DNA of 64,000 nt from Nocardioides aurantiacus (lineage in GTDB: Bacteria > Actinomycetota > Actinomycetes > Propionibacteriales > Nocardioidaceae), in the NCBI RefSeq assembly GCF_003752505.1, contig NZ_RKHO01000001.1, positions 1,860,001 to 1,924,000 on the forward strand. Reading direction: 5' to 3'. This document shows positions 5,049 to 34,978 of the stretch, piece by piece. The position numbers and the translations under genes are program-made. Position 1 is the first letter of the stretch. The number at the start of each line of letters is the position of its first letter. Under the pieces are notes generated by a model. That model saw only the letters and a program-made list of their open reading frames with translations, was not told the origin of the DNA and searched no databases.

Positions 5049-5098
5049 ACCTGCTCAGACGAGTCAGCAACGAGACCTGCTGTATGACTATCGAGTCT

Positions 5099-15324: not shown

Positions 15325-15420
15325 CAACTCGCAGTTCGCCGAGGCGACGCTGCGGCGCGGTCGGCATTCAGTGCCGTGACGCGGTCGCGAGCGCTGGGCG
15401 CGCGCTAATCCGTCGCCCGA

Positions 15421-15672: not shown

Positions 15673-15889
15673 CTCGCGAGACTCCCGTCAGAACCGCCGC
15701 CAGACGAGAACATAAAAGTTCCTGTGACTCGGGACGGCGTGTGGCGGCACGCATATATGTTCTGTACGTTCGGCGGCGGTTCACCGCTCCTGTGGTGGAC
15801 CTGTCAACCAGGTTCCCCCGCAGCCAGCGTGGGATTCGACCGTTTGCAGGCGCAGCCCTAACTGCGCCTGCATCCACACCGGAGCCCAC

Positions 15890-16876: not shown

Positions 16877-17011
16877 CAGTCGCTGCGTTCTCGTTCGCAC
16901 TACGTGAGGCGACGGCGTGGACGGGTTTCCGCCATTAGCCCCGCCGGGGGTTTGACCTTGACATTCTGAGCGAACAATCAGGTCAAATCGGTGAGCGTTC
17001 GGGGGGCGCGC

Positions 17012-17455: not shown

Positions 17456-17457
17456 CC

Positions 17458-19940: not shown

Positions 19941-19956
19941 CCGAGGAGCACACCCC

Positions 19957-20394
19957 GTGAAGCGGTTGCCCACCCTGATCGCCCTCGTCGCGATAGTCGC
20001 CGCCCTGGCTGGATGCGCCACCCTGCCCTCAGGTGACTCGAAGAACAACGAGGACAAGGGATGCGGCGACTGTGCAGCCGAGGTCGACGCGCTCAAAACC
20101 ACAGTTGAGCAGATGCCAGACGTGAACAAGGTCGGCCAGTTCGCCTACAACTCAGACACCAACGCCGGATCCGGACCCGGCCTGAGAACCGACATCGACC
20201 TCGCGAAGGGAGACTCCGAGGCCACCGCCGACGCCGTCATCAAGGCAGCCTGGGAAAGCCGGATCACGCCGCTGGAGCAGGTTGTCGTCGTCACCACCCA
20301 GGGCGGAGGCGGCGCTGAACGCTACGCCGCCACCTTCTACGGCAACGACCTCGAAAGGTACGAGAAAGAGTGGGGCCCGCGCCCAGTCAAGTAG
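19957..20394 (+). CDS. Small lipoprotein, first of a tandem pair
   Basis: GTG 19957 lies 16 bases after the hydrolase stop. The 145-residue protein has a lipoprotein signal (LIALVAIVAALAGCA). The mature domain carries a GCGDC pair followed by AEVDALKTTVEQMPDVNKVGQF, YNSDTNAGSG and the C-terminal ERYEKEWGPRPVK. It is paralogous to the next gene. Being in the same transcription unit, it may act with the hydrolase at the cell surface, for example as an inhibitor or anchor; this is inference. Confidence 0.8.
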   Translation: MKRLPTLIALVAIVAALAGCATLPSGDSKNNEDKGCGDCAAEVDALKTTVEQMPDVNKVGQFAYNSDTNAGSGPGLRTDIDLAKGDSEATADAVIKAAWESRITPLEQVVVVTTQGGGGAERYAATFYGNDLERYEKEWGPRPVK

Positions 20395-20577
20395 CCGCGT
20401 CGCAACGACGAACAGCCCCACCTGCTGCAGCAAACCCGAAACCGGCTCGCACTCACTGGCTGGCTGACACCCACGACTTCGGGGTTCGCTCGCACCCACC
20501 CCTAGGTTTGCAACTGGTCGCAGGACTCTGCGCTCGGCGATCAGTCACTCACCGCAGATGACTCGGACGGGACTCCA

Positions 20578-21012
20578 GTGAAGCGAACCGCCTGGGCCCT
20601 CGCCGTGCCGACCGCACTCTTCGCCCTGTCCGGTTGCACACTGCCGGGTGCCGCCAGCGACCCGAAGAACGAACCCCCTTCGTGCGGCCAATGCCAATCC
20701 CAAGTCGCCAACCTCAAGGCCCAGGTTGAGGAGATGCCCGCCGTCTCGAAGGTGGGGCAGTTCCGCTACAACTCCGACACCAACGCCGGTGGCGGCCCCA
20801 GCCTGAACATCGACCTCGCTGTGGCGGGAGGCGACGCGGAAGCGACGGCGGACAAGGTCTTCGAGGCTGCATGGAAGAGCCGCGTCACGCCTCTTGAAAC
20901 CGTGGTCGTGAACACGGGTGGACCCGGGTCCGTCGAGACCTCCGACGCGCGGTTCTACGGCAAGTTCCTCGACGAGTACGAGACCAGGTGGGGTCCGCGC
21001 CCCGTCAAGTAG
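20578..21012 (+). CDS. Small lipoprotein, second of a tandem pair
   Basis: A 144-residue paralogue of the preceding protein starting at GTG 20578. It shares the signal and lipobox (ALSGCT), a CGQCQSQVANLK region, EEMPAVSKVGQF(R)YNSDTNAGGG, the DxxATADKVFEAAWKSR(V/I)TPLE helix and the identical WGPRPVK end. The 183 bases separating the two genes contain no other recognisable gene. The pair arose by tandem duplication. Exported and membrane-anchored; function unknown. Confidence 0.8.
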   Translation: MKRTAWALAVPTALFALSGCTLPGAASDPKNEPPSCGQCQSQVANLKAQVEEMPAVSKVGQFRYNSDTNAGGGPSLNIDLAVAGGDAEATADKVFEAAWKSRVTPLETVVVNTGGPGSVETSDARFYGKFLDEYETRWGPRPVK

Positions 21013-21367
21013 GCGCGTCGCGCGCACGCAGGGCGGCGGCTGGGTCGCTTGACCTCATGACGTGCCGGGCCCGGGCGACCATCCTGATGTGATCAGCCCG
21101 GAACACGTAACCCTCTGCGCTCATGAGGTGCGGCAGCCGGTCCTCAACAGCAAGCCGCTGCACGTAGACAGTCGTGACACCCAGCAGTACCGCCACGTCA
21201 CGGGTAAACATCCACTCCCCCGGTGGCAAATCCCGAACGACGCGCTCACGAGCGAGGCGTCGCGCGTTCGCGACGCTGTGTGAGCGAGTGCCGCTGGAAG
21301 TCGAGCGACCCGCGCGCAACGACGCAGCGTCCGGTCGCATCCCAGGGACGTCAGACACGGCTCCCAT
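21005..21367 (-). CDS. Small DNA-binding protein (excisionase/MerR-like helix-turn-helix)
   Basis: Starting at ATG 21367, a 120-residue basic protein. Residues of about 50-100 (GEWMFTRDVAVLLGVTTVYVQRLAVEDRLPHL, then GYVFRADHIRMVARAR) form a winged helix of the type seen in excisionases and MerR proteins. The N-terminal half is arginine-rich and low in structure. It could regulate nearby genes or act as an accessory recombination factor. Its last 8 bases overlap the convergent lipoprotein gene. Confidence 0.6.
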   Translation of the reverse strand: MGAVSDVPGMRPDAASLRAGRSTSSGTRSHSVANARRLARERVVRDLPPGEWMFTRDVAVLLGVTTVYVQRLAVEDRLPHLMSAEGYVFRADHIRMVARARHVMRSSDPAAALRARDAPT

Positions 21368-21641
21368 ATGCCCGCCGAGGCAGGCCCAAAACTCGACACC
21401 CGACCCTACGACGAACGCGGACAAGCAAGGGATTGCCGCCGTTCCCCGACAGCGAGAGCGCGCTGGCTGCGGACGCCCGGCCTGCGGCTGATTCCTGCGC
21501 CTTGGCGGAGGTCGTGCCGTGTGGGACGCGCTGCGATGCAGAGATCTGCAGCGAATCCGACGCCTATCCTGGCGGAACTGAGATGGGTGGAACCGCCGGT
21601 CGTGGCGTGGTTGGCCTGGTCGGCGGTCGGGAGCGCGCTAG

Positions 21642-21806
21642 TTAGGCGGTGCGACGACGCGCGGAGCCGTTCTTGCGCTCTTGCGCCATCTCGGCGGCGA
21701 CTTCCTTGCGAGCCCGGTCGCGCGCTTGACCGAAGTAGGTCTTGGGGTCAGCCAGTGCCCGGGCGATCCGGTCATCACGGCGAGGCTTGTTCAACTTCTG
21801 CGCCAT
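21642..21806 (-). CDS. 54-residue basic protein
   Basis: A short gene starting at ATG 21806 with a GGAGACCTGCATC ribosome-binding context. The protein begins MAQKLNKPRRDDRIARAL, continues ADPKTYFGQARDRARKEV and ends in RKNGSARRRTA. It is hydrophilic, strongly basic and probably helical. The good ribosome-binding site and GC-rich third positions support it despite its length. Similar short basic proteins are scattered in actinomycetes; role unknown. Confidence 0.65.
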   Translation of the reverse strand: MAQKLNKPRRDDRIARALADPKTYFGQARDRARKEVAAEMAQERKNGSARRRTA

Positions 21807-22148
21807 GATGCAGGTCTCCTCGGACTGGGTGGGGGCTGTCGCACTACTGTGCCACGCCGGTTGCGGCGACTCTACGGATCAACGGTGGCAACCCGGTGTC
21901 AGTGGAGGCAGAGTCAGTGCCTGAATCGAGTACGAATGCAATACGTATTCCAATGCATCCGGAGAAGCATTTGCAATTTCACCGATCCGCCGTCGACATG
22001 ATGTTGGAGACGCTCAGCGACGCCCTTCGGCACCGGACCCCGCCAGACAACGTGCATGAAACCAAGAGTATCTTCGCTATTTCGGTTAGTTGCCCGAGCC
22101 AATTTTGGCTTAACCATTCGCTACTTTCAGGCCCCGGATTTAGGTGGC
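21807..22148. other. AT-richer intergenic stretch
   Basis: The stretch from about 21,900 to 22,145 is visibly richer in A and T than its surroundings and contains a perfect palindrome AATACGTATT. An 87-codon plus-strand frame (21896-22159) runs through it, but its codon choice is unlike the neighbours and it overlaps the next gene's end. I regard it as non-coding or a relic. It may mark a boundary of acquired DNA. Confidence 0.4.
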
Positions 22149-22946
22149 TTATTCGTTGACGTCCTCGAATTCGCGTCGTCGGAAAACGGTGGTTTCGCCG
22201 TCTCTGACCACTAGTGGTGTCTTGATAGGGCTGGTGACCGCTTCGAACTCAACATCGGTGTCGTCAAGGTAGGCGGCAACGACTTCGGCAGCAGCCTCCT
22301 GGGTTAACTCCCGTTCGCGGTCCGTGATGGGACCGGCGTAGGTGAACTCGCCGTGCAACGCGGACCCGTCTCCGGCGAGCCGGACCGTGACTTGGCGAAG
22401 GTCGCTGGTGACAACACCCCACAGGCTGCGGTTCACCTCCAGGACGGCGTCGTTCAGGCTGATACTCGGCAAGGTGGTACCTGAGGGTTGCGACGACCTC
22501 TGGGGCGAGGTTGCGGACCTGCCGGTCAGCCGCGATATGAGGCTGGCGGTCATGCGTCGCGCGTGGTGTCGTAATCGCGTCGGAAGGTTTGCAGGAGCAG
22601 CGTGGTCGGGTTGCTTGGCAGGCTTGTCGTACCGCTGGACGGCGAGGTGCTGGATGGCTCGGAGCAGTCCGGTGAGGTGCTCAATCTCGTGGGTCAGGAC
22701 GACTTCGGTGTCGTCGTCTCGTGACTCGTTGAGGAAATCGCGGATGGTGTCGGCGTCATCCGAGACTTGCCCGACCCCCGAGACCTTAGGGACTACGTCC
22801 AGCGAGAAGGCCTCCTCCACCGAGACATGCCAGTAGTAGTCGACGGAGAGCCGCAGTTCCTCGCCGAGTTCAGCCTCAACAACGTCCAGCATTCTTGAGA
22901 CCGCATCCCGCAGTTCGGAGACGGTGATGTCGGGCGCGCTGTCCAT
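22149..22946 (-). CDS. Two-domain hypothetical protein
   Basis: ATG 22946 starts a 265-residue soluble protein. The N-terminal domain (residues of about 5-115) reads ITVSELRDAVSRMLDVVEAELG, DYYWHVSVEEAFSLD, GQVSDDADTIRDFL and HEIEHLTGLLRAIQHL. After a basic, serine-rich linker, the C-terminal domain (about 170-265) reads VLEVNRSLWGVVTSDLRQVTVRL, YAGPITDRERELTQEAAAEVVAAY and VFRRREFE. Each half resembles small stand-alone proteins found in accessory and toxin-immunity neighbourhoods; I cannot name either family with certainty. The fusion suggests one polypeptide doing two linked jobs, perhaps immunity. Confidence 0.65.
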   Translation of the reverse strand: MDSAPDITVSELRDAVSRMLDVVEAELGEELRLSVDYYWHVSVEEAFSLDVVPKVSGVGQVSDDADTIRDFLNESRDDDTEVVLTHEIEHLTGLLRAIQHLAVQRYDKPAKQPDHAAPANLPTRLRHHARRMTASLISRLTGRSATSPQRSSQPSGTTLPSISLNDAVLEVNRSLWGVVTSDLRQVTVRLAGDGSALHGEFTYAGPITDRERELTQEAAAEVVAAYLDDTDVEFEAVTSPIKTPLVVRDGETTVFRRREFEDVNE

Positions 22947-23134
22947 CCGGGGAGCGTATCGACGCTCAACACCCGTCGGGTCCACTAAGTCCGTCGTTGC
23001 CGTGTTCCGCAGAGCATCTGACGGACGCCCGCGCGTGGCACCGCTCAGAGGTTGTCGCCGCAGGCTTTTGAGATGGGTTGCTGACGTCGGGCCTCTACCG
23101 CCTGCTCCCCCCCCCGGGGCGGCGGGGCTTGTGC

Positions 23135-23620
23135 TCACGCGTCTGGCGAGTTCTGAACCTGCTCTCGCAGTTGGTGTCGCACGCGGTCGGAAGCCCTCAT
23201 CACGTCCTTGGTGGCTAAGAGCATGTCGTCGACGTCCTTTTTTCGCACGTTCCTGACTTGCTTGAAGGACAGGGCGAGGGCCATGACGCGACCTAAGTCG
23301 TCGATGGCCTTGAAGAGTGAGTCAAGGTCAGTAGTGCTCAGGTCAGTGCCTGGCGCAGAGGTCTCCCGGGCAGCGGGGTGCGAGTTGACGAACCGGTCCC
23401 GTGCGGGCTTGCACGCTTCACAGGTTTGACGACGTGGCATGAGAACTGTTTGGCAGAACGGACACCACCGGTCCTGACGAGCGGAGCGACGCTGTAGGCC
23501 TCTCCCTTGCCCGTGAGCCGGTTCAGTCAAGTCGTAGGGCTCGAACGGCTTAGGACGCCTCTCGCGCGGCAGATTCACTGCCTGCGTCGCGGTGTATTTC
23601 CGTCCGGGCTGCAGAGTCAC
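23135..23620 (-). CDS. Zinc-ribbon protein divergent from the transposition operon
   Basis: The frame is open to 23770, but GTG 23620 is the better start (VTLQPGRKYTATQAVN); the region upstream of it carries phased promoter repeats. The 161-residue product has a zinc ribbon WCPFCQTVLMPRRQTCEAC near residue 50 and a C-terminal helical part (DSLFKAIDDLGRVMALAL, VRKKDVDDMLLATKDVMRASDRVRHQL). It looks like a small DNA- or protein-binding accessory factor. It is transcribed away from the 23921-31705 genes and shares their control region. Confidence 0.6.
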   Translation of the reverse strand: MTLQPGRKYTATQAVNLPRERRPKPFEPYDLTEPAHGQGRGLQRRSARQDRWCPFCQTVLMPRRQTCEACKPARDRFVNSHPAARETSAPGTDLSTTDLDSLFKAIDDLGRVMALALSFKQVRNVRKKDVDDMLLATKDVMRASDRVRHQLREQVQNSPDA

Positions 23621-23640
23621 TTTTGGCGCTTTCCGTCTCT

Positions 23641-23838
23641 GGAGTTCGCTGGGGTTTCTGAAGTTGGCAGAAGTTACCCGGAAGGTCCCGGGAAGTTTGG
23701 GCTTCACCTGCGTCAGCCGTCGACGACCCAAGTCACGTCTCTGACCTGCGGTTTCGCGTCCCCCAAACACGTCTCGACACCATGTATATCAACCGCGCGG
23801 CAACGTTTCCGGGAAGTTCGCGGAAGGTTGCTGAACTT
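23641..23838. promoter_or_regulatory. Two clusters of helically phased GAAGTT-like hexamers between divergent genes
   Basis: Cluster 1 has GAAGTT at 23660, GAAGTT at 23670, GAAGGT at 23681 and GAAGTT at 23692, with a weaker GGAGTT at 23641. Cluster 2 has AACGTT at 23802, GAAGTT at 23813, GAAGGT at 23823 and GAACTT at 23833. Start-to-start spacings are 10, 11, 11 and 11, 10, 10 bases. That places every copy on the same face of the helix. Cluster 1 abuts the zinc-ribbon gene's start; cluster 2 lies 83-120 bases before ATG 23921. They are likely binding sites for an operon regulator or for the transposase, allowing cooperative assembly. Confidence 0.7.
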
Positions 23839-23920: not shown

Positions 23921-24778
23921 ATGTCTAACCGCCCGATTTCTGCTCTTGCCGCCACCGGAACGTCCGCCTACGCTCCCACCCACGTCGCACCTTCGTGCGA
24001 CGTCGTCGTCGGAAGCGAGCCCGGTCATGTCGTACAGACCCAGCCCCACAAGGGGACCGCTGCACTACGTCTGACGGCTATGGCTATGGCCTCTCAGCGT
24101 GCGGCCTTCCCCGCATCCCGAGAGGAGATCCTCGCTGTGAAGACCGCCCAGGTCGTCGCCGAAGACATCGTCGAGTCCGCCTACGAGGCCATGACGGTGG
24201 ACGGGGACGAGTTCGACCCCGCCTCATTCATCCTGACCGCCGCCCGCGACGCCGCCAGCGTGCTGGCCGAGGTCCTTGCGCCTCTCAGCCAGGCGAGCCG
24301 GGCCATGGTGGTCGACCTGGCCGTTGAGCCGACCCGCAACGCTAGGTGGCTCGACTCGCTCCTCGGCGGCATCGCCACCATCCTTCACGCGTTCGCCCAG
24401 CGGTTCACCCTGGGCGACGGGACATGGGCCTGCGTGCGGAACTACGGCTGCGCCTACCTGGAGTCCCGGGTCGTGGCCTGGCAGGCAGCAGACGGTCATA
24501 CCCAACTGCACCTGCTCGACACAGACGTCCCGACGCCCGATGACCTCGCCAGGACTGACGAGGTGCGCGACATCTTCGCGGCCATGGCCCGCGTCTTCGG
24601 GTCTGCGACTCTGACGCTCTACCCGGCCCGCTGCCCCGCGCAGGCGCGCCTCTACGTCGCCCATGACAAGTGGCACCTCCTCTCGAAGCAGGGGGAAGAC
24701 AGCGGCTACAACGACGTCCCGGTCCTCGACGCCCGTAGGGACGAGATGGACGAGATGGACGAGGACGACGCGGCATGA
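23921..24778 (+). CDS. Hypothetical protein, first gene of the transposition-associated group
   Basis: ATG 23921 has a TAGGAGA ribosome-binding site at the right distance. The 285-residue protein is soluble and mostly helical. It contains REEILAVKTAQVVAEDIVESAYEAM, SVLAEVLAPLSQASRAMVVDLAV, WACVRNYGCAYLESRVVAW and a LYPARCPAQARLYV segment, ending in a striking acidic tail (DEMDEMDEDDAA). Four cysteines lie in the central and late parts. No family was recognised. It lies downstream of the phased repeats and 113 bases before the next, interrupted gene. Confidence 0.7.
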   Translation: MSNRPISALAATGTSAYAPTHVAPSCDVVVGSEPGHVVQTQPHKGTAALRLTAMAMASQRAAFPASREEILAVKTAQVVAEDIVESAYEAMTVDGDEFDPASFILTAARDAASVLAEVLAPLSQASRAMVVDLAVEPTRNARWLDSLLGGIATILHAFAQRFTLGDGTWACVRNYGCAYLESRVVAWQAADGHTQLHLLDTDVPTPDDLARTDEVRDIFAAMARVFGSATLTLYPARCPAQARLYVAHDKWHLLSKQGEDSGYNDVPVLDARRDEMDEMDEDDAA

Positions 24779-24966
24779 GTGCGCTCATCGGCCCCGCATG
24801 GGGCAGACCCTGCGCGCATCGCTCTGCGCTGCGCCAGGTCTGACGAGCCACGACCGTCGCTCGCCACCTCTTAGACGAAGAAGCAGAAATCATGACCATC
24901 ACCCACCGTGCTGACGCACGCTCCAACACCGTCCACCCGTCGCCGTTCAGGCTGGGCGCAGGCACC

Positions 24967-24972
24967 CCTAGC
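24967..24972. repeat. Left target-site duplication of the IS481-family element
   Basis: The six bases CCTAGC directly before the element's TGTGATG end are repeated exactly after its right CATCACA end (26092-26097). This is the footprint of transposase-made staggered cuts and shows that the insertion is intact and probably recent. Confidence 0.9.
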
Positions 24973-26091
24973 TGTGATGACCAGGCACGTTGGTCAAGGA
25001 CGTGTGAGGACACGGTCTGATGTCGTGGATGAGTGAAGACCTCCCGGTGTGGAGTGGAGCTACCTAGGAACCGCTCCACGACCAGGAGGTCTTCGTGTCT
25101 CACGCTACCCATGCCAATGCTGCTCTGACGCCACGTGCCCGGCTGCGATTGGCGCGTCTGATCGTCGAGCACGGTTGGCCGCCGGCGCGGGCAGCCGAGC
25201 GGTACGACGTGTCGTGGAAGACCGCGAGGAAGTGGGCTGAGCGCTATCGGGCCGAAGGGCCGGCCGGGATGAGCGATCGGTCCTCGGCCCCGCATCGTCA
25301 GCCAAACCGGACCCCGGCACCGGTGGTGCGCAAGATCGTGCACCTTCGGTGGAAGCAGCGGCTCGGGCCGGTCGAGATCGGTGACCGGCTCGCGATGCCG
25401 TCCTCGACGGTTCACGCGGTCCTGGTGCGGTGCCGGATCAACCGGCTCACCCACATCGACCGCGCCACCGGTGAGCCGATCCGACGCTACGAGCACGAGC
25501 GACCAGGCGACCTGCTGCACGTTGACGTCAAGAAGCTCGGCAAGGTCCCCGACGGCGGCGGCTGGCGCTACGTCGGACGTCAGCAGGGCGAGAAGAACCG
25601 CGCTGCGACGCCTGGGAAGCCGCGCAACAAGTACCGCGGCCCGCTGATCGGGACCTGCTACCTGCATACGGTGATCGATGACCACTCCCGCGTCGCCTAC
25701 GTCGAGGCCCACGACGATGAGACCAAGGAAACGGCCACCCAAGTGCTGCGCAACGCAGTCGCCTGGTTCGCCGAACGCGGTGTCATCGTGCAACGGGTCC
25801 TCAGCGACAACGGCAGCTGCTACAAGTCCCACCTGTGGCGCGACACCTGCGCCGAGCTGGGGATCACGCCGAAGAAGACCCGGCCTTACCGGCCCCAGAC
25901 CAACGGCAAGATAGAGCGCTTCCACCGCACCCTGGCCGAAGGGTGGGCGTTCAAGAAGTTCTACAACTCAGAATCCGCCAGACTCGCCGCCCTGCCAGGC
26001 TGGGTCCACGAGTACAACCACCACAGGCCCCACTCGGCCATCGGGAAACGCTCACCCATCAGCAGGTTGGACAACCTGGCTGGGCATCACA
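24973..26091 (+). mobile_element. IS481-family insertion sequence, complete, 1119 bp
   Basis: The terminal inverted repeats are 25 bases long: 24973-24997 (beginning TGTGATGACCAGG) and 26067-26091 (ending GGGCATCACA). They match at 20 of 25 positions, with the outer seven identical. Six-base direct repeats CCTAGC flank it. The element carries one gene, a DD35E transposase, on the plus strand. It landed inside the 204-residue gene of the transposition-associated operon, in the same orientation, and is likely to be polar on the genes behind it unless an outward promoter exists. Confidence 0.9.
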
Positions 26092-26096
26092 CCTAG
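25095..26096 (+). CDS. IS481-family transposase
   Basis: A 333-residue protein starting at GTG 25095, with an AGGAGG-type ribosome-binding site (ACCAGGAGGTC) before it. An N-terminal helix-turn-helix (AAERYDVSWKTARKWAERYRAEG, residues of about 33-56) and a second HTH (GPVEIGDRLAMPSSTVHAVL) bind the ends. The rve-type core has Asp144 (LLHVDVKKLG), Asp238 (VLSDNGS) and Glu274 (NGKIERFH), a DD35E set, followed by HRPHSAIG. All catalytic residues are present, so the enzyme should be active. The reading frame runs through the right inverted repeat and its TAG stop lies in the duplicated target DNA. Confidence 0.95.
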   Translation: MSHATHANAALTPRARLRLARLIVEHGWPPARAAERYDVSWKTARKWAERYRAEGPAGMSDRSSAPHRQPNRTPAPVVRKIVHLRWKQRLGPVEIGDRLAMPSSTVHAVLVRCRINRLTHIDRATGEPIRRYEHERPGDLLHVDVKKLGKVPDGGGWRYVGRQQGEKNRAATPGKPRNKYRGPLIGTCYLHTVIDDHSRVAYVEAHDDETKETATQVLRNAVAWFAERGVIVQRVLSDNGSCYKSHLWRDTCAELGITPKKTRPYRPQTNGKIERFHRTLAEGWAFKKFYNSESARLAALPGWVHEYNHHRPHSAIGKRSPISRLDNLAGHHT

Positions 26097-26097
26097 C
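26092..26097. repeat. Right target-site duplication of the IS481-family element
   Basis: CCTAGC, identical to 24967-24972. Its TAG (26094-26096) is the in-frame stop codon of the transposase, so target choice determines where translation ends. Confidence 0.9.
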
Positions 26098-26627
26098 CTG
26101 CGTCGCGTCTACTCCCCCTGTGAACTTCTCGGGTTCGAGGAGTTGCTCGTCGCCGCCCTGCGGGGATACGCCGCAGCCATCGCAATGCAGTCTCACCGCG
26201 ACGACCCGTTCGCCTACGCAGACCGGGTCGCCGACCTGACCCGGCCCGAGGCCGGAGACTCCCCCACCGTCTGGACGTCGCGGCTGCCTGCGCTGCTGCA
26301 CCAGTACGCCGACCACATCCCCTCAGCAGAATGTGACTTCGTAGGAGTCGCCCCCGGAGACCACCCCTGCTGGGAGGACGCGCAGGGTCGTGTCGTAATC
26401 GACGTGCTGACCACCCTGACCATGACCGAACTCGCCCCCGGTGAGAGCGAGCACCAGGTCCACGTCACGTCACGCAGCGGCAGGCACCAGTTCGGTGACC
26501 GTTTTTTCGGCGTGCGTCACATCGTGCTCGACGCCCCCTACGAGGGGTCGTGGTGTCCAGCAGACGGCGACCCTGAGCCGCTGTTCCTGTGCGACCTCAA
26601 CGACGCGGCGGTCAGGGGTGGGTTCGC

Positions 26628-27269
26628 GTGAGCGCCGCTAGCAAGTCGCGTGCCGCGTTCGCTGCGGCAGGTCTGCCCGTCCCCATCTACAAGGGCCCTG
26701 CCCCGGCGACGGTCGACCACACCGTGTGGGACACCCGCATCGGTGTGCTCACTCACCGGGTCATCGGAGAGGTGGCCCCACACGCTCAGAACATCCCGGA
26801 CGTGACCGGGACGGTCATGGCCGACCTGGTGCGCAGCACCGTCGCGCGGGTAGTCGCTGACCGGACCCTGGGCAGGTTGGACCGGGCACGCATCCGTGTG
26901 ACCGGTCTGACCGTCCAGTACGTCCGCGAGTACCTGCCCCCACTTGGGGTGGATTTCCTCGGCACGGAACTGGCCGCCGGTGGGGGCCGGGTCGACCTGG
27001 CCTGGTACCACCCTGCGGTCGGGGTGTGGTTCGACGAGTTGAAGACCTGGCGGCACGCCCGGGCAGGTCTCGACACCGAAACCTGGGTTCAGGTTCGCCG
27101 CTACCTCGACGCGGGCAAGACGACGTTCGGTGACGCGTTCGTCGGCGTCCGGCTGCTCACCCTGGGCAACCGCCGTGCCTGCATCACCATCACCAGTAAC
27201 GGGTTGATTGAGGACCTGCACACCTCCCCGCTCGCGCCAGCGCGGCTCCACCTGAGGGGTGTCGCATGA
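26628..27269 (+). CDS. PD-(D/E)XK nuclease, TnsA-like subunit of the transposition module
   Basis: GTG 26628 overlaps the previous stop (GTGA). The 213-residue protein has a helical N-terminal half. Its restriction-endonuclease-like core has GGGRVDLAWYHP (Asp123), VGVWFDELKTWR (Glu137, Lys139) and ETWVQVRRYLDAG (Gln155), the D-ExK-Q signature of Mg-dependent nucleases, followed by FVGVRLLTLGNR. Set directly before a DDE transposase and an AAA+ ATPase, it most likely cuts the 5' ends of the transposon, as TnsA does in Tn7. Primary sequence similarity to classical TnsA is not evident, so this may be a distinct nuclease type filling that role. Confidence 0.7.
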   Translation: MSAASKSRAAFAAAGLPVPIYKGPAPATVDHTVWDTRIGVLTHRVIGEVAPHAQNIPDVTGTVMADLVRSTVARVVADRTLGRLDRARIRVTGLTVQYVREYLPPLGVDFLGTELAAGGGRVDLAWYHPAVGVWFDELKTWRHARAGLDTETWVQVRRYLDAGKTTFGDAFVGVRLLTLGNRRACITITSNGLIEDLHTSPLAPARLHLRGVA

Positions 27270-28981
27270 CCGGCTCGCGCACCCTCAAGCGTCGCGAACC
27301 GGCCACGGTGACGGACGACAACACCGCCCTAAAGCGGCTGTCGATGTCGGACAAGCACGCCGTGGTTCAGCAGGTCCGTCGTCTTGGCGCGGGCCAGCGG
27401 GCCCTCGGCTCACACGTCAAGGTGGTCGCCGGTCGGCACGGCATCTCACCGAAGACGGTGTACCGGTGGATGAACGACCCCCGCTTCGCCACCGACACCA
27501 CCCCCAGCCCGTCGACTCGCGGACGGTTCGAGGTGACCACCAACCACCTGGCGGTGCTCGCGCACGAGCAGTGCATCTACACCGCCTGGTTGACGATGCA
27601 CGAGGCCGGGCTCATCGACTGCTCGTACAGGACGTTCACGCGAGCCCTTCAGGAGCGGACCGACCCCGCTCTGGTGGCTGCTGCGCTGCACGGGTTCAAG
27701 GGGTTGGTCAACAACCGCCTGTACTTGAAGTGGAACCCCCCGCACCGGTGCCATACGCACCACGTCGACCACACCGAATTTGACCTGTGGGTGTGGCCCA
27801 GCCACAAGCACCGGTCTCCCGTTCGTCCCCATGTGACGGTCATCGTCGACGGGTACTCCTCCCTCATTCACGCGGTGCCGTGGGTCGGGGACATCAACGG
27901 CGACATGGTTGCCGCTGCCCTGGCCGACGCGGCGGTCGAGCACGACTACATGGGCACCCCTGTGGGCGGGCAGCCTGAGCAGGTCGTCCTGGACAACGCG
28001 GCGGCACACTTCGGCCCCTCGATGCGCGACGGCATCGAACGGGTCGGGTGGATTCCCGCTCCGACCGCCTCGTACTCGTCGTGGCAGAACGGCAAGGCCG
28101 AGCGTTCCATCGGGCTCCTCAACGAACGGCTCTCGAACCGTGCGCCAGGGGCCACCAAGTCCGGCACCACCCGTACCGGCGCACCCCGCAACGTCGCGAA
28201 ACTGCCCAAGGACGTGCAGCCGGGCGACGTGTGGGGGTGGAAGGCGTTCCAGCACGCACTGCAAGAGACCGTCGACGAAATCAACACCTCGATTCCGGTC
28301 CGGCGGCTCGGTGGGCTGACCCGGCTGCAGGCGTACGCCGCCGACACCACAGAACGTCGCCCCATGAAGGACTCCGAGGCGCGCATCGCGATGATGACGT
28401 CCGGGCACATCACCTACACGGCGTCCAAGAACGGCATCCACTTCCAAGGCGTCGACTACGTCGGCTCGAAACTGCAGTTCGGGAAGAAGTACCTCATCAG
28501 GTACCTGCCCACGCAGCGCGAGTTCATCGAAGTGATGGACCTCCACGACGAGCACGTGCAGCGCGCCTACGACCCGCACCGGATGCCCAAGAAGGTCTCG
28601 GACGCGTTCCACACGGAGCGGGCGCGCCAGGAACGGGACGCCCAAGCCATCGAGTTCGGTGTGCAGGCCCACCGTCGTCACCTGGCGGCGGTCGACAACG
28701 CCAACGTGGGCTACGGCGAAGACACCGACCCTGGCCCGACCAAGGCCGTCGACTCAGTCGACCGGTCACACGGCGACCGAGCCGTCCCCAAGACCAGCCG
28801 CCGGAAAGCAGCGAAATTGCCCCGCATCCCGGCCACCCCGCAACCCAAGGACACCGTCACCTCCAGCGCCCGCTCCCGCCTCGAACGGGCCTACGGCCAG
28901 GGGCTCAACGGCCCCACCGCCACAGCCGACAACGACACCCCACCCACCCCCACCGACCACAGCAAGGAGCCCCAGCGGTGA
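27266..28981 (+). CDS. DDE transposase, TnsB/MuA-like
   Basis: ATG 27266 overlaps the nuclease stop by four bases. In the 571-residue protein an N-terminal HTH (VAGRHGISPKTVYRWMNDPRF, residues of about 54-74) precedes a catalytic core with Asp168 (HHVDHTEFDL), Asp243 (QVVLDNAAAHFG) and Glu279 (NGKAERSIGLLNERL). The last two are separated by 35 residues, the DD35E spacing of retroviral-type integrases. A Mu-type C-terminal beta-barrel region follows (GIHFQGVDYVGSKLQFGKKYLIRYLP) and then a basic, Pro-rich tail that could contact the ATPase. It should join the transposon 3' ends to target DNA. Confidence 0.9.
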   Translation: MTGSRTLKRREPATVTDDNTALKRLSMSDKHAVVQQVRRLGAGQRALGSHVKVVAGRHGISPKTVYRWMNDPRFATDTTPSPSTRGRFEVTTNHLAVLAHEQCIYTAWLTMHEAGLIDCSYRTFTRALQERTDPALVAAALHGFKGLVNNRLYLKWNPPHRCHTHHVDHTEFDLWVWPSHKHRSPVRPHVTVIVDGYSSLIHAVPWVGDINGDMVAAALADAAVEHDYMGTPVGGQPEQVVLDNAAAHFGPSMRDGIERVGWIPAPTASYSSWQNGKAERSIGLLNERLSNRAPGATKSGTTRTGAPRNVAKLPKDVQPGDVWGWKAFQHALQETVDEINTSIPVRRLGGLTRLQAYAADTTERRPMKDSEARIAMMTSGHITYTASKNGIHFQGVDYVGSKLQFGKKYLIRYLPTQREFIEVMDLHDEHVQRAYDPHRMPKKVSDAFHTERARQERDAQAIEFGVQAHRRHLAAVDNANVGYGEDTDPGPTKAVDSVDRSHGDRAVPKTSRRKAAKLPRIPATPQPKDTVTSSARSRLERAYGQGLNGPTATADNDTPPTPTDHSKEPQR

Positions 28982-29745
28982 TGCCCAACCCTGACCAGCC
29001 ACTCTCACTAGGCCTCGAAACCGAACTAGCCGAAACCGAGTTCTTCCGCGACGGAGTCCTAAAAGCACGCGGGGTCCTCAACGTCAACGGCATCCTCGCC
29101 ATCGACGGCGTACCGGGAACGGGCAAGACCACCTGCGCCCGCTACGTCGCCCAAACCTGCGAACGCCCGGCAGCGCTGGTGCGGATGAGCCACCGTCCCG
29201 CACCCCTGGAACTACTGCGCCGCACCCACCTCGCGGTCACCGGAAGGCGGCCCGGGAAGCGCGACACCCGGTTCCAGTTGCAGAACGACCTGCTGGAGTT
29301 CCTCTGCGACTGGAACGGCGTCCTCATCGTCGACGAGTTGCAGAACTCCGAAGCCAACGCCATGCGCGAACTCACCTGGCTCTACGAAGAAGCCGACCAC
29401 GACTTCGGTCTCATCGTCGTCGGCACCGACGTGCTCAACGCCGTCCTGAAGTATCCCCAGTTGCACAGCCGCATCATGGGCGACCACACCTTCGGCACCC
29501 TGCGCGGAACCGACCTCATCACCGCCGTCCGCTCCCTCGACCGCCGGTTCGCCGACGCCCACACAAGCGCGCTGGCCGACCACAACGAAGCGTCCTGCGC
29601 CGGGCTTCTCCGCCGCTGGGTGCACACCGTGCGGTGGCTCAACTCGTTCAACATCACCGACACGGTCACCGCCGACGACCTCGCCGACGTACGAGGCATG
29701 CTGCCCGCCCTAGCCGACGACGACTACTACGAGGACGTCGCATGA
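28981..29745 (+). CDS. AAA+ ATPase, TnsC/MuB-like target regulator
   Basis: ATG 28981 shares a base with the transposase stop (TGATG). The 254-residue protein has a Walker A motif DGVPGTGKTT (residues 42-51), Walker B GVLIVDELQN (113-122) and a sensor-1-like LIVVGTD (144-150). It closely follows the TniB/TnsC layout. In related systems this ATPase forms filaments on DNA and passes target information to the transposase. It is translationally coupled on both sides. Confidence 0.9.
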   Translation: MPNPDQPLSLGLETELAETEFFRDGVLKARGVLNVNGILAIDGVPGTGKTTCARYVAQTCERPAALVRMSHRPAPLELLRRTHLAVTGRRPGKRDTRFQLQNDLLEFLCDWNGVLIVDELQNSEANAMRELTWLYEEADHDFGLIVVGTDVLNAVLKYPQLHSRIMGDHTFGTLRGTDLITAVRSLDRRFADAHTSALADHNEASCAGLLRRWVHTVRWLNSFNITDTVTADDLADVRGMLPALADDDYYEDVA

Positions 29746-31016
29746 CGCTGACCCTGACCCCGCTCCCCGCGAACGTTTCAGCCAGGTCGCTCCTGCCCAA
29801 CACCGACCCCGCCACCGGCATCGTCACCGCCACAGGGCGACCCACACGCCACGCCTGGGCGATAGGGCAAACCATCCTCGCCGCCATGGGCATCCGGCTC
29901 GACCTCACCGGGTCCGGACGCAGGCACGGCCAGAACCTCGAACTGCTCCAAGCCTGGCTCGACGCATACCGCGTCCGTGTCCTCGTCATCCGGCACGCCA
30001 CCAACATCCACGACTACAACCTGCTCAACGACCTCGTCCACGTCACCGCCGCGACCGGCACCGACCTCGCCCTCACCTGCGACGACACCGGAGGGTCCCA
30101 ACTCGCCGACTGGGTCGACTTGCGCGGAGGCAGCATCGACCCCGACTTCGCGCCGCTACAAGCACGCCTCGCCGCAGTCACCCGCCCCAGCCTGGGCCCC
30201 GGCGTCGATAACGCAGCCGACACCCTGGGCACCGGGCAGCCTGACGATTCGGACGCCGACTTCCCCGTCTTCCTGCCCCGCGTCGACTTCTACGCCTTCC
30301 GCGCCCGCTGCCGCGACCTCCTCACCCCCGCGCAACACCAACAGGTCGACGACCACTACAGGACCGTCTTCAAGGCCGTCGCCGACGACCCCTTCGCCAC
30401 CAACGAAGAAGCCACCACCAGGTTCAGCGAACTCGTCGCCGCCACCTCCCACGTCGGCAAAGCCCTCGTGACGGCACGCGCCGCACAAGCCGCCATGTTC
30501 ACCCACGGCATCCTGTTCAAGGTCAACCTCGACTACTTCCTTAACGCCATCAACGACGTCGAAAACCGACGCCTCACCCCAGCCGAAGTCCGCGCGCTCC
30601 GCGCCTACCGCACACCCTGGCGAGCCGCCGCAGTCATCCTCCGAGACGCCGACCTCACCCGCGACCACGTCACCGCACTCACCGTTGCCCACGTCACCCC
30701 CGACGGTGACCTGACCGGCGTCCGCCACGCCCCGATGCACCCCGGCGCCCGCGTCTACCTGCGCGCCCAGCGCACGTTCCGGCTCATCCAGGGCGCAGAA
30801 CCCGGCTCACCCCTGCTGACCGAATCCAACCGCTCCATCGTCCAAGCACAACGCCGCGCCGCAGTCGACCTCAACCTGCCCAACGTCAAGAACCACGAGC
30901 CCTCTAACACCACACGCTCCGACCGCTGGCAACAGAACCTTGGCGTCGCGCTCCTCCCCCTCCGAACCGCCCACATACCCGACCCCGCAACCACCAAAAC
31001 CGGAGCACCCCAATGA
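29742..31016 (+). CDS. 424-residue protein of unknown function, candidate target-selection subunit
   Basis: ATG 29742 overlaps the ATPase stop by four bases. The N-terminal part (residues 1-130) contains TRHAWAIGQTILAAMGIRLD, LVIRHATNIHDYNLLNDLVHV and GTDLALTCDDTGGSQL, which looks like an alpha/beta domain. The C-terminal part is helical: RLTPAEVRALRAYRTPWRAAAVIL, DADLTRDHVTALTVAHVTPDG and VYLRAQRTFRLIQGAEPGS. This has the cadence of a tyrosine-recombinase-like helical fold but no R-H-R-Y catalytic set that I can identify. Its position corresponds to TnsD/TniQ in known systems, so a role in choosing the target is the natural hypothesis. It lacks the zinc fingers of TniQ. Confidence 0.6.
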   Translation: MTLTLTPLPANVSARSLLPNTDPATGIVTATGRPTRHAWAIGQTILAAMGIRLDLTGSGRRHGQNLELLQAWLDAYRVRVLVIRHATNIHDYNLLNDLVHVTAATGTDLALTCDDTGGSQLADWVDLRGGSIDPDFAPLQARLAAVTRPSLGPGVDNAADTLGTGQPDDSDADFPVFLPRVDFYAFRARCRDLLTPAQHQQVDDHYRTVFKAVADDPFATNEEATTRFSELVAATSHVGKALVTARAAQAAMFTHGILFKVNLDYFLNAINDVENRRLTPAEVRALRAYRTPWRAAAVILRDADLTRDHVTALTVAHVTPDGDLTGVRHAPMHPGARVYLRAQRTFRLIQGAEPGSPLLTESNRSIVQAQRRAAVDLNLPNVKNHEPSNTTRSDRWQQNLGVALLPLRTAHIPDPATTKTGAPQ

Positions 31017-31705
31017 CCAGCAACCGCGTCCGCTACGCCAACGGCAACAGGGTCCGCGACCGCCTCCTCGAAATGCGCATCAGCGTACGAGAACTCGCCC
31101 GCCGCAGCGGCACCAGCGAAACCACCGTCCGCGCCATCCTGCACCGCAACGAAATCAGCGGCAGCACCCAACTCGCAGACATCTACCGCATGCTCGACAC
31201 CCTCAGCCTCGACCCAGGTGACCTGCTCGACCCGACCACACCTGACGAACCCGACGACACACCAACCGACGACACGCAAACACTCGCCGCGCTGCTCGCA
31301 ACCGAAAAGACGATGCACGCCCCAGAGCGACTCGCCACCGCGCTCGGCTGGACCCTCGACCGCCTCTACATCACCCTTACCGACCTCGACGCACACCTGC
31401 GCGCCGTAGGCCTGCGCATCCACCGAAATAGAATGGGCATCACCATCCGCCCCGCCGACGACCGCGCCCAGCAGGCATCACAACGCCTCGCCCACCTCCA
31501 CGACCACGAAGATGGCATTCACCAAGGCACGGCCCGCGTCCTCTACACCGTCTACACCGGCACTATGTCCGCCCGCGAAACCCGCAAGGACCAGCAGTTC
31601 CACCTAGGAGCGCTCAAGAACCGGGGAGCCATCACCTTCGGCACCGGAAGCGGCAACCGCTTCACGCTCACCGACGACACCGCCTACGCCTTCGACGTTG
31701 ACTAG
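31013..31705 (+). CDS. XRE-type HTH protein ending the transposition operon
   Basis: ATG 31013 overlaps the previous stop. The 230-residue protein has an N-terminal XRE helix-turn-helix (VRDRLLEMRISVRELARRSGTSETTVRAIL), a Thr/Asp/Pro-rich linker, and a C-terminal pair of winged-helix-like segments (APERLATALGWTLDRLYITLTDL and QFHLGALKNRGAITFGTG). It may be the regulator that binds the phased hexamers upstream of the operon, or a DNA-binding target selector. These options cannot be separated by sequence alone. Confidence 0.75.
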   Translation: MTSNRVRYANGNRVRDRLLEMRISVRELARRSGTSETTVRAILHRNEISGSTQLADIYRMLDTLSLDPGDLLDPTTPDEPDDTPTDDTQTLAALLATEKTMHAPERLATALGWTLDRLYITLTDLDAHLRAVGLRIHRNRMGITIRPADDRAQQASQRLAHLHDHEDGIHQGTARVLYTVYTGTMSARETRKDQQFHLGALKNRGAITFGTGSGNRFTLTDDTAYAFDVD

Positions 31706-31847
31706 CCGTCGTACACCGCCCGGGTTAGGAATGTGGGCACCGGTCACGCCACCACCTTCCGACCACCTCAACGTCGGGAACAGGAGCAGGTGTTGGCGGG
31801 AGACTGGCGTCCTCCCCCGCACTCCTGGCCTATTCACCAGGTCGCAT

Positions 31848-32501
31848 TCACCGCCGGAGCGCGCCTCTCAACCATCTGTGGGTTCTGTGCACTCCTGTGC
31901 GCCTACGACGCGAGAAACGGCCCTCCCGACTGCGTCGGCGTCGCACGTCGCGTGGAGGAGCCTGGTCCGCCACAGCCTCAACGGCTCGGTCAAGTGCCTC
32001 TCGGGCGGCATGGATGGCATCGACCATCTGCTCACCCTCATCGGGCATCAATTGCCGCTCGCCTCGAAGCCGCCAGACAGATACCTCGGCCATCGTCATT
32101 TGAGCGCTGGCTCCTCGAAGTAGGCCCATCTGCTGTTGTTCACTGGCACCGGTGATGCGCCGGATGAGCCAATCTGTCTTGACGCGGACCCGTGCGTAAT
32201 CGCCGGTGGCGGCAGCAACCCGCGTCTTCTGCTCTTCGCGAGCCTCAAGGAGACGGTGCGGGTCAGCCGAACTATTCCGGGCAGACACCAACACCTCGAT
32301 ACGTACAGCCTCGACAAGTCGTTGCTCGGGGTCTGGAAGTTCGAAAGCAACTATCTCGCCAAGTTGCCGCACGTCCTTTTCCCAGCGGTCCTCAAACCGC
32401 TTTTGTGACTCGACCCTCGGCACAACACGCAATTGAACAAAAGAGGTCGCCGCCAGCGTTCCCCCGGCAGTCAGGACGTATGGAAGGACCTCTTGCAACA
32501 T
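31848..32501 (-). CDS. Membrane-anchored hypothetical protein
   Basis: A 217-residue protein with an N-terminal hydrophobic anchor (LPYVLTAGGTLAATSFVQL), then a long charged helical cytoplasmic part: RFEDRWEKDVRQLGEIVAFEL, LLEAREEQKTRVAAATGDYARVRVK and DEGEQMVDAIHAAREALDRAVEAV. The C-terminus is very arginine-rich. No family was recognised. It is convergent with the transposition operon and could be cargo of that element. Confidence 0.65.
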   Translation of the reverse strand: MLQEVLPYVLTAGGTLAATSFVQLRVVPRVESQKRFEDRWEKDVRQLGEIVAFELPDPEQRLVEAVRIEVLVSARNSSADPHRLLEAREEQKTRVAAATGDYARVRVKTDWLIRRITGASEQQQMGLLRGASAQMTMAEVSVWRLRGERQLMPDEGEQMVDAIHAAREALDRAVEAVADQAPPRDVRRRRSREGRFSRRRRTGVHRTHRWLRGALRR

Positions 32502-32761
32502 GCGTGAAGTCTTCCTGCTGCCACCGACAGTCTGGCCGCCGGGCGCAGGTAGGCGCAGTCGCGGCAGGGAGATGCACTTCCGGGACCACGGCCAAGACCA
32601 CCAAGCCGACGCAGTCGGAGTCAGACACCCATCCGACCCGAGACACCGCCGGAGCGATGTTCACCGTCGCAGTGAGCCTCGCCCGACGACACCGCCTGGA
32701 GCGACCGTTACCCCCTACACACGACTCACGCCTCACCGCCCGCCCGAGGCGGCGACACCGC

Positions 32762-33724
32762 TCATCGCCAGTTGAAGTTGCCCCCACGCCCCCACGCCCC
32801 GAACTGCTGAGTCAACGCCCGCTCACGAGAGGCGCGCACATCCATAGGCGGGTACAAAAACTGCGCCTTGTACTCGTCCCGAGAGATCAACCGCAGCGCA
32901 TACTTCTCCCGCAAATCGTCCGCGCGAACCGCCTGCCGCCGCCCCTCCGCCATAGCCGTCTCCAGCGCCCGCCGTTCACGGTCATACCCGGGGTTGCCCG
33001 GCACCCCGGCGCACTGCGCCTCCAACGACTGCAACCCCGAGTCACCTTGCACCATCACCAGCCTGACCCGAGCGTCGTGCAAATCATTCTCGGCCTCCGC
33101 CAACTCGCGCGCGTGACCGCGCCCGAGTGCGGCCTCAGCCCGCCGCCACGCGTACGCCTGCTCCGCAGCACCCAACATCTCGACCTGCGTAGCCCATAAA
33201 TGACCTTGTCCCCTGTGCGGCACCCGCCCCTCGAACCCTGTCTCGCGCCCCGTCAGCCACAAGTCCGACTTCGCGAACGCCTTCGCAGCCAAGGTTGGGA
33301 ACTCCGAAGCGGCCTTTGCCTCTTCCGCCGTCATGGCACCGCTCCGCACCTCGCCCAAGATGAACGCCGCGCGGTCCCGAAGCCTCTGTCCCTCCGTCAA
33401 TGCCACCCGCAACGCCACCGACTCATCCGGGTCGTCAACGAAGAATTCCTCCTCTTCCGCGAGCGCCTCGCGGAGCCGGTCAGACAACTCCCTACGCCCG
33501 TCAGGAGTTGACGCGAACTGAGCCATCGCATCGGCCACCCCGCACTCCGCCCGCAACACCCGACGCTGCACCGCCACCCTCAGGCAACCGCGCTCCGTCA
33601 GCGGCGACGACTCAGCCAACGCGACCGCGTCGTCAACTCGTTCCCACGCCCTATCCAGCGACACGCGCGCATGCGCCACACACCGCTGACCACCCTCACT
33701 TCGAGCACGACACATACCCGTCAC
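32762..33724 (-). CDS. Hypothetical soluble helical protein
   Basis: A 320-residue, highly helical and charged protein whose start at 33724 reads MTGMCRARSEGGQRCVAHARVSL. The C-R-x-x-x-x-G-G-x-R-C arrangement is a motif I associate with mobile-element proteins of actinomycetes and may bind metal. Downstream helices include RELSDRLREALAEEEEFFVDD and GHARELAEAENDLHDARVRLV. Function unknown; likely accessory cargo. Confidence 0.65.
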   Translation of the reverse strand: MTGMCRARSEGGQRCVAHARVSLDRAWERVDDAVALAESSPLTERGCLRVAVQRRVLRAECGVADAMAQFASTPDGRRELSDRLREALAEEEEFFVDDPDESVALRVALTEGQRLRDRAAFILGEVRSGAMTAEEAKAASEFPTLAAKAFAKSDLWLTGRETGFEGRVPHRGQGHLWATQVEMLGAAEQAYAWRRAEAALGRGHARELAEAENDLHDARVRLVMVQGDSGLQSLEAQCAGVPGNPGYDRERRALETAMAEGRRQAVRADDLREKYALRLISRDEYKAQFLYPPMDVRASRERALTQQFGAWGRGGNFNWR

Positions 33725-33886
33725 ACCGTCCCTTCGACTCAGGACGGCACTAACGGATGCGACGGCTTCCCAGGCCCGGGAAGCCGGTCAGCCCAGAACC
33801 AACACATCTGATACCAGGCCTCTGTCGAAGCGGAGTTCAGTCAGACTGACCAGACAGCGGCCACCCTGATCCGAGTCGCACTTGAC

Positions 33887-34382
33887 GTGCAGCGACTGCC
33901 GTATCGCTGGCCCGCGCCGCCCGATGCGGCGAGCACCGAGATCGCCGGTGCAGGCACATGCGCGGGCAAGCATGCACTGCTCGCCGAGCGCCTCGAAGAA
34001 GTAGGCCTAGCCAGCGCTCCACTGCTTGTAGTGGGCCCGCTCGCGCCCCCTATATGGCAAGACCTCGCTGGCGAGGCCGAAGAACTGATGGAAGTGCACA
34101 AATGCCTCACGGCCCTCACCCCGTGGGCCGGGCCGCTCATCGTGGACGTCACTTGGCATCCACCCGCCGTCGCCGCTGGACTACCTGGCATGCCCAATCC
34201 TTGGGACGGGAGCAGTAACATCCCCACCGCCATCACGGCCACCGGGCCTGGGTATGCAATCGATCGCACCAGGCTTCGCGAATACAAAAGAGAAGTTGCG
34301 GGACAGGATGTACACCCGACAGCAACGCGAACGCCGCGACCGCATCCTTACCGAAATTGCAATACGAGCCACCACGTTCTAA
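33887..34382 (+). pseudogene. Frameshifted gene of a conserved actinobacterial family
   Basis: From GTG 33887 the frame gives QRLPYRWPAPPDA, GTCAGKHALLAERLEEVGL, PLLVVGPLAPPIW, EVHKCLTALTPWAGPLIVDVTWHPP and AAGLPGMPNPWDGSS, a coherent globular protein. It has a Cys in GTCAGKH, a His in EVHKC and an Asp in VDVTWHP that recall a transglutaminase-like triad. At the A4 run near 34286-34289 the frame slips: deleting one A restores KEKLRDRMY and a natural helical end that stops at 34382. The N-terminus also starts abruptly after a stop, so the gene may be truncated at both ends. Confidence 0.65.
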
Positions 34383-34486
34383 GCCGCGCACGTGAGTCCA
34401 ACCCGCCTCAGAAAACGCATAACCATTCCGGTCTGCGGCGACGCGAACGCTCACACTTGCCGGGGGATGTAGCCCCTGTCGAAGAC

Positions 34487-34527
34487 GACAGCAGGGCGGG
34501 AACCACTAGTGTTCCCGCCCTGCTGTC
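34487..34527. terminator. Strong perfect hairpin, probable bidirectional terminator
   Basis: The arms GACAGCAGGGCGGGAAC (34487-34503) and its exact reverse complement (34511-34527) form a 17-bp stem with a 7-base loop (CACTAGT). No T-tract follows, which is common in actinomycetes. It lies about 105 bases past the frameshifted gene and just before repeats that look like an IS end. Confidence 0.7.
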
Positions 34528-34544
34528 ACTCACCACTCTTCGAC

Positions 34545-34627
34545 TTGTCGCAAACTGGCGTCATTCCGTCTCAGTCTGATGGCAAAACGTCTCAGTTACG
34601 TGGCAAACCTGTCGCACTTCGGTGTCA
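34545..34627. mobile_element. Repeat array resembling an insertion-sequence terminus (relic)
   Basis: Two 21-base modules, GTCTCAGTCTGATGGCAAAA at 34568 and GTCTCAGTTACGTGGCAAAC at 34589, sit between two TGTCGCA...GGNGTCA modules (34545-34562 and 34610-34627). Multiple terminal repeats of this GTCTCAGT/TGGCAAA type occur at ends of IS21-like elements. No transposase is present, so this is a solo end left behind by a lost element. It overlaps the apparent start of the LuxR gene. Confidence 0.5.
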
Positions 34628-34978
34628 CTTGACAGCCAGCTCGAGCGAGACGAGCACAACGTGCCCGTCCTGACCGGTTACCTGATCGACCTCACCGATC
34701 GTGAGGGCGAGCGGTGGCACCAGCTCAGCGTGTCTTCGGCCGGCGATGGCCCGACACAAGTCGCTTGGAGCAGCGAACACGGTCTGTCACCGCGGGAAAC
34801 GCAAGTGCTCCTGCTCATAGCGCAGGGGTACTCCAATGAGGGAATCGCCCGTCACCTGTTCCTCAGCATCAACTCCGTCAAGACCTACGTCCGAACCGCC
34901 TACTACAAGATCGGTGCGCAGCGCCGGGTTCAAGCAGCGCTGTGGGTGCATCAGCACATCACGTCATCGGTGCCGTGA
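34622..34978 (+). CDS. LuxR-type HTH protein, probably truncated at the N-terminus
   Basis: A 118-residue frame starting at GTG 34622. The C-terminal half is a complete LuxR/FixJ DNA-binding domain: LSPRETQVLLLIAQGYSNEGIARHL and SINSVKTYVRTAYYKIGAQRRVQAALW. The N-terminal part (VLTGYLIDLTDREGERWHQLSV) is not a receiver domain. Because the GTG lies inside IS-terminus-like repeats, the original 5' end was probably replaced. It may still bind DNA but has lost any phosphorylation input. Confidence 0.7.
   Translation: MSLDSQLERDEHNVPVLTGYLIDLTDREGERWHQLSVSSAGDGPTQVAWSSEHGLSPRETQVLLLIAQGYSNEGIARHLFLSINSVKTYVRTAYYKIGAQRRVQAALWVHQHITSSVP

Follow-up and report, generated by a model that had tools for sequence, protein, structure and literature searches.

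A Tn7-type transposon of Nocardioides aurantiacus that probably chooses its targets without TniQ

In Tn7-like elements, the CRISPR-associated ones included, TniQ is regarded as the hub that links target recognition to TnsC, and the TnsA endonuclease is not present in all members. Elements of the Tn5053/Tn402 type comprise TniA, TniB, TniQ, and a resolvase, and phage Mu makes a 5-bp duplication, as does the element described here. PMC10293859 describes tniQ/tnsD as ubiquitous in the Tn7 branch and TnsF of Tn6022 as a protein with a dead tyrosine-recombinase domain and an N-terminal zinc-finger region that needs TniQ and targets comM. We analyzed a 64,000-nucleotide stretch of Nocardioides aurantiacus (the window; assembly GCF_003752505.1, contig NZ_RKHO01000001.1, positions 1,860,001 to 1,924,000) that contains five open reading frames (ORFs), here called A, B, C, X, and H, on one strand (+), each overlapping the next. 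With good though not full confidence, we take this locus to be the central part of a Tn7-type transposon, 49,095 bp long, that selects its targets without TniQ. No account of such elements was found in the open-licence PubMed Central literature, judged by title and start of abstract.

That the locus lies in a transposon is established by its ends. The element has 5'-TG...CA-3' termini with box repeats at both ends. On the right, three boxes (34580, 34601, and 34623) form the one cluster of their pattern within 64 kb, and 30 of the 45 terminal bases are identical to those of a related element in another genome (G534). The left end, found by scanning 40 kb further left, lies at genome position 1845540 directly after GCCAG and shares 29 of 37 bases with the left end of the G534 element; with both strands of 104 kb scanned, no other place does better than 21. 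Given these mapped ends, the window up to 34634 is inside the transposon, which starts 14.46 kb left of the window; the unit of 23921-31705 proposed in an earlier reading made from the sequence alone (the sequence-only reading) was thus far too small. Two other candidates were discarded. A left end at 21756 (GCCAG, then TG) sits inside a short open minus-strand frame and has no left-end boxes, the true end being 14.46 kb outside the window, and a direct repeat at 21836/34607 (17/20) is, by our own estimate, at about chance level over so many comparisons. A strong inverted repeat resembling a terminator lies just inside the right end (34487-34527).

When the two flanks are joined with one GCCAG, an uninterrupted 250-codon PAS-LuxR frame results, the left flank carrying the PAS half (PAS_3, E 5.1e-12) and the right flank the GerE half. 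A search of the genus for an empty site, by flanking DNA and by LuxR/PAS protein, found no orthologue of the interrupted gene; the best PAS match (G012) reached 42% over 87 residues of a 232-residue protein whose second half is unlike the LuxR half. The case for insertion thus rests on the joined flanks.

The core enzymes are recognizable by homology. Alone, B gave only a small match to Mu-transpos_C (E 0.0023), and a profile of 13 B proteins, the window copy included, matched TnsB of the Scytonema CRISPR-associated transposon at E 3.9e-44, followed by other TnsB chains. Its triad (D168, D243, and E279, the last two separated by 35 residues) is invariant across the 13 profile members, and B is by this homology a TnsB-type DDE transposase. 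C carries a Walker A motif (GVPGTGKT) kept in 10 of 10 aligned C proteins and matches PF13401 at E 6.9e-13; a profile of those 10 proteins found MuB as its best PDB match (E 2.9e-17) and also ShTnsC (E 4.7e-9), which assigns C by profile to the MuB/TnsC-type ATPases. H matches PF13443 (E 3.3e-6).

The 213-residue protein A has no meaningful match to any Pfam family, TnsA families included, and nothing significant in the PDB by sequence. Residues E114, D123, E137-x-K139, and Q155 are invariant in all eight aligned A sequences, a conserved E-D-ExK pattern that we take to be that of PD-(D/E)XK nucleases. A is, on the strength of these residues, a putative PD-(D/E)XK-fold nuclease and TnsA analogue. 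Searched on its own in 391 genomes of the order, A matched 15 at E 0.01, the host included, and seven genomes beyond the host gave strong matches (E 1.2e-13 or better).

In six of the seven A-bearing loci of other genomes, single-sequence or profile searches recovered the order A-B-C-X-H, with homologues of H likewise in six of seven. One of these loci (L156) has B spread over two ORFs; the seventh (L155) holds A and a fragment of B. Because the order recurs in this way, the operon arrangement is not a chance one. The sequence-only reading had pointed to five overlapping genes from 26628 encoding a protein with a D-ExK-Q motif and no obvious TnsA similarity, a DD35E transposase, and an AAA+ ATPase, and each of these descriptions is borne out by the searches above. 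Its wider proposal, a heteromeric Tn7-type element with its own targeting, gains support from the ends, the 5-bp duplication, the TnsB-like B, and the MuB/TnsC-like C.

X occupies the place where a target selector would be expected. A profile for X matches 83 of 104 related actinobacterial stretches, the window not counted; the profile was seeded with members of the same loci, nine of the 21 misses are stretches under 5 kb, and the 104 include three places twice (L002/L018, L005/L022, and L006/L021). This recurrence makes X, as judged by the profile, a standing third member of the B-C transposon family. By sequence, X has nothing significant in the PDB, ShTnsC appearing only at E 0.47. Foldseek gave no match below E 0.001 for the whole of X or for its C-terminal part, for which the best E was 0.33. 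The AlphaFold2 model of X (predicted local distance difference test score 83.8) suggests the two domains listed in Table 1, and in residues 169-424 no H, K, or Y column and one R are conserved at the 60% level. Read from this model, X probably pairs an inactive TnsC-like helper ATPase with a tyrosine recombinase that may likewise have lost its activity. Together with H, X is likely the target selector of the element.

TniQ itself was not found in the host. At E 0.001, PF06527 (TniQ) found no match in the complete host genome or in six of the seven other A-bearing genomes, and none in 14 named control genomes. The remaining A-bearing genome (G704) has two TniQ genes, far from the element. The earlier remark that the proteins in the target-selection slot show no TniQ zinc fingers agrees with this.

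Related elements show what site choice can look like in this family. In G534, G704, and G715, the right box array runs precisely up to the stop codon of nrdJ, which encodes a class II ribonucleotide reductase (PF02867 at E 7.7e-141 or better in all three). In each, TCAGC starts the right flank and recurs directly before a left end that begins with TG and carries short repeats, delimiting elements of 26,579, 17,882, and 22,532 bp. These three relatives are site-specific to one base position. Visual inspection identified the right ends of relatives, each an array of like boxes downstream of H. In three more genomes (G711, G526, and G241), dnaB is the neighbor, its 3' end directly adjoining the right array, and the evidence there covers right ends only: G526 has a candidate left end with the duplication TCAGT and an imperfect right terminus, and no convincing left-end candidate was seen in G711 or G241. 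In G604, no junction was located. The host retains a free nrdJ 3' end, and the window copy is inserted elsewhere, though its nearest relative sits at nrdJ; it may have taken a second pathway or a similar-looking site, or its site choice may be relaxed. The comparison of syntenic copies suggested by the sequence-only reading thus yielded mapped ends, insertions at nrdJ, and right ends at dnaB. It also speaks against a domesticated locus at one fixed place without ends or duplications, since ends as well as duplications are present and the copy in the window is placed unlike its relatives.

The B family extends well beyond the A-bearing elements. Relatives of B occur in 29 plasmid records. Of 243 genome stretches matched by pattern, 205 were confirmed, and 79 loci were kept, from Streptomyces, Nocardiopsis, Nonomuraea, Actinomadura, Pseudonocardia, Actinoplanes, Cryobacterium, Arthrobacter, and other hosts. 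No close relatives were found in viral contigs, and none in a first scan of genome contigs with B alone. In a tree of 103 B domains, six A-bearing B proteins form one clade (support 0.981); the six include that of the window, and L155 and L156 were dropped by a length filter. Several relatives without A have a serine resolvase adjoining B-C.

Among the A-less elements, all eight loci inspected have a box array after H or X, and two Pseudonocardia plasmid loci, 99% identical to each other, part exactly at the box-array end. A matching 5-bp pair was looked for in L028, L015, and L010, and none was seen. Of 23 stretches long enough for the comparison, 5 have an ORF for the plasmid relaxase mobF that starts less than 1 kb beyond H; annotation places a mobF gene after the modules of L009, L010, and L011, and none was found in L012, L016, and L017. 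A-less elements are thus often placed immediately upstream of mobF (L009, L010, L011, L015, L027, L028, L061, and L071), and mobF may be the region to which they attach.

Two loci of this family lie beside CRISPR genes. In a Streptomyces sp. BB1-1-1 plasmid (NZ_CP134205.1, 275388-285954; L014/L139), Cas3 and type I-E Cascade genes end 24 bases before the B-C pair, where X has no match and a 30-kb gene table lists no cas1 or cas2. This could possibly be a TniQ-less type I-E CRISPR-linked transposon, or else a chance neighbor. In L136 (11797-19059), which also has no X match, casA, cas7e, and cas5e (by phmmer) lie downstream of a family B, 1.5 kb away, and Cas3 and casB were seen by eye downstream of B as well.

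Several other explanations of X and of the window copy must be considered. X and H might be regulators or accessory factors, with B and C alone choosing targets by local DNA preference, as Mu or IS21-like elements do. The closer resemblance of C to MuB, the Cro/C1-like helix-turn-helix (HTH) of H, which suits a repressor, and the position of the window copy at a site unlike the nrdJ site would all fit such an arrangement. Three elements with divergent proteins nevertheless share one nrdJ base position and the same 5-bp duplication, and both the presence of X in 83 of the 104 stretches and its modeled TnsC-like and integrase-like domains speak against it; we regard this explanation as unlikely. 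Alternatively, a TniQ might act from elsewhere in the genome with X as a TnsF-type accessory, a notion to which the distant TniQ genes in one of the eight genomes (G704) lend something, as does TnsF of Tn6022, a TniQ-dependent protein according to PMC10293859, whose inactive tyrosine-recombinase domain may have a parallel in X. Given that PF06527 is unmatched in the other seven genomes, the complete host genome among them, and that X is without the zinc-finger region of TnsF (CxxC motifs are absent from the window X and present in only 1 of 33 X members), we find it very improbable.

The integrase-like fold modeled in the C-terminal part of X also raises the idea that the element is integrated by X itself, acting as a functional tyrosine recombinase in the manner of an integrative and conjugative element, with A, B, and C as passengers. 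This is scarcely credible for a protein with a single conserved R and no conserved H, K, or Y column over residues 169-424, in an element bounded by box arrays of TnsB style and 5-bp duplications. Finally, the window copy could be an inactive relic, as its single-copy state in the host genome and the splitting of the upstream gene g2 by an IS481 insertion might imply; A, B, C, X, and H are all open, however, both ends are there, and the GCCAG duplication is perfect, which leaves this reading only a very slim chance.

The favored explanation is a transposon that selects its targets through X and H, for which the following mechanism is proposed. B would bind the end boxes and join the 3' ends to the target, and A would cut the 5' strands at the element ends, giving cut-and-paste movement; relatives that have a resolvase and no A would form cointegrates and then resolve them. 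C would polymerize on target DNA, as TnsC and MuB do, to form a target-bound ring. X and H would read the attachment site through the integrase-like domain of X, and the dead TnsC-like domain of X would recruit or cap the C ring. X may thereby fuse two jobs shared elsewhere by TniQ and TnsD/TnsF.

A bolder generalization, for and against which we see the chances as evenly balanced, is that actinobacteria harbor a superfamily of TnsB-TnsC transposons without TniQ. Its chimeric selector would consist of a dead TnsC, a dead tyrosine recombinase, and an HTH partner, with the pseudo-TnsC seeding or capping the active ring directly. Its members would carry defence systems to the ends of nrdJ and dnaB and, in plasmids, to sites next to mobF, and would include at least one locus with type I-E Cas3-Cascade beside B-C where X is missing. 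Target choice through X, if borne out, would be a way of finding a landing site that is new among transposons. A large family homing without TniQ would show that the hub can be replaced by a dead TnsC copy joined to a DNA reader, would open the testable question of what TnsC recruitment minimally needs, and would offer new parts for targeted DNA insertion in actinobacteria. The delivery of Thoeris-like and restriction-modification cargo to fixed sites would be explained as well.

The cargo includes such genes. Just inside the left end (host stretch L169, left of the window, 7245-9132), one caspase-like gene is accompanied by two TIR genes of the ThsB type; by their sequence resemblance, these may form a Thoeris-like defence cargo with a caspase effector. 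In the same stretch, and within the same 49,095-bp element, PADLOC marked a capP/capH-like peptidase and HTH pair at 13362-14242. The left cargo in the window (16991-20999) has WXG100-like and alpha/beta-hydrolase-like genes, both below Pfam cut-offs, and two alike small lipoprotein-like genes seen by eye. In the relatives, the left-side cargo proteins tested (L153, L154, and L158) are N6/N4-type DNA methylases of restriction-modification systems, and no match was obtained for the single right-side protein tested (L152).

Upstream of A, the sequence-only reading had listed two unknown genes. The 285-residue g1 stands, being open and without any match, but the 204-residue ORF does not, as its start sits inside the IS481 transposase and it is really the second half of g2, split by the IS481 element. 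In phmmer searches, neither A nor g1 nor g2 matched the 104 other stretches below E 0.1. g2 resembles A weakly: within a set of seven loci it matches the L156 homologue at E 8.7e-4, and against A of the window it reaches an E of 0.46. Its second piece is without the nuclease E and K of A; by this likeness g2 is possibly a degenerate copy of A. A divergent accessory gene with two CxxC motifs is not TniQ by Pfam. It clearly matches a homologue in L152 (phmmer E 3.6e-38; shuffle z 52.8), resembles its L154 counterpart weakly (z 3.8), and shows no resemblance to L153 or L156. The counterparts also lie upstream of A (L152 7474-7947 and L154 8218-8685) and have two CxxC motifs each.

Table 1. Features of the element and its right flank, in window coordinates
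Feature	Position	Strand	Remarks
Left cargo within window	1..23134	.	between the two mapped ends
Accessory gene, two CxxC motifs	23135..23770	-	upstream of A, divergent
g1	23921..24778	+	285 aa (amino acids), open, no family match
g2, first piece	24892..24972	+	split by IS481; sequence read directly
IS481 insertion in element	24973..26091	+	1119 bp; 6-bp duplications CCTAGC
IS481 transposase	25095..26096		NF033577, E 1.9e-102
g2, second piece	26098..26631	+	overlaps start of A
A	26628..27269	+	putative PD-(D/E)XK nuclease, TnsA analogue; GTG start
B	27266..28981	+	TnsB/TniA-type DD35E transposase
C	28981..29745	+	AAA+ ATPase, MuB/TnsC type
X	29742..31016	+	424 aa; proposed target selector
X, residues 1-135	29742..30146	+	predicted TnsC/MuB-like AAA+ domain without Walker A
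X, residues 276-387	30567..30902	+	predicted tyrosine-recombinase-like domain, catalytic tetrad not conserved
H	31013..31705	+	Cro/C1-type HTH protein; co-selector or regulator
Right cargo	31706..34545	.	minus-strand unknown ORFs 31848-32501 and 32762-33724; no Pfam match
Right end	34546..34634	+	boxes ~21-22 bp apart
Right GCCAG, 5-bp target-site duplication	34635..34639	.	left copy 14.46 kb left of window
Interrupted target gene, C-terminal GerE half	34640..34978	+	GerE, E 5.9e-16

Compared with the described systems, the element combines features of several. With Tn5053/Tn402 it shares, through several A-less relatives, a serine resolvase next to B-C, but X stands where TniQ would, and no TniQ is annotated in the stretches that carried annotation. 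Phage Mu likewise pairs a DDE transposase with an ATPase, MuB being the best PDB match of C, whereas here a nuclease-motif protein, X, and H are present and three relatives occupy one exact site. TnsF of Tn6022, as PMC10293859 presents it, has an inactivated tyrosine-recombinase-like domain that the proposed selector may share; it has N-terminal zinc fingers where X has a predicted TnsC-like pseudo-ATPase and, in the window copy, no CxxC, and it works through TniQ to target comM, whereas X has no TniQ partner and its loci lie at nrdJ, dnaB, and a PAS-LuxR gene. The likeness to Tn7 comprises a TnsB-type transposase, a TnsC/MuB-type ATPase, and a nuclease-motif companion; box arrays at the ends with a 5-bp duplication (in the window element and three relatives); relatives adjoining a conserved gene (three at nrdJ by both ends, three at dnaB by the right end), the window copy lying in the PAS-LuxR gene; and large cargo with defence genes. 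Because tniQ/tnsD, which PMC10293859 calls ubiquitous in the Tn7 branch, was not found in the host genome, the element works like Tn7 yet fails a defining feature of Tn7-like elements; A differs as well in matching no TnsA family, and X and H stand in the selector slot.

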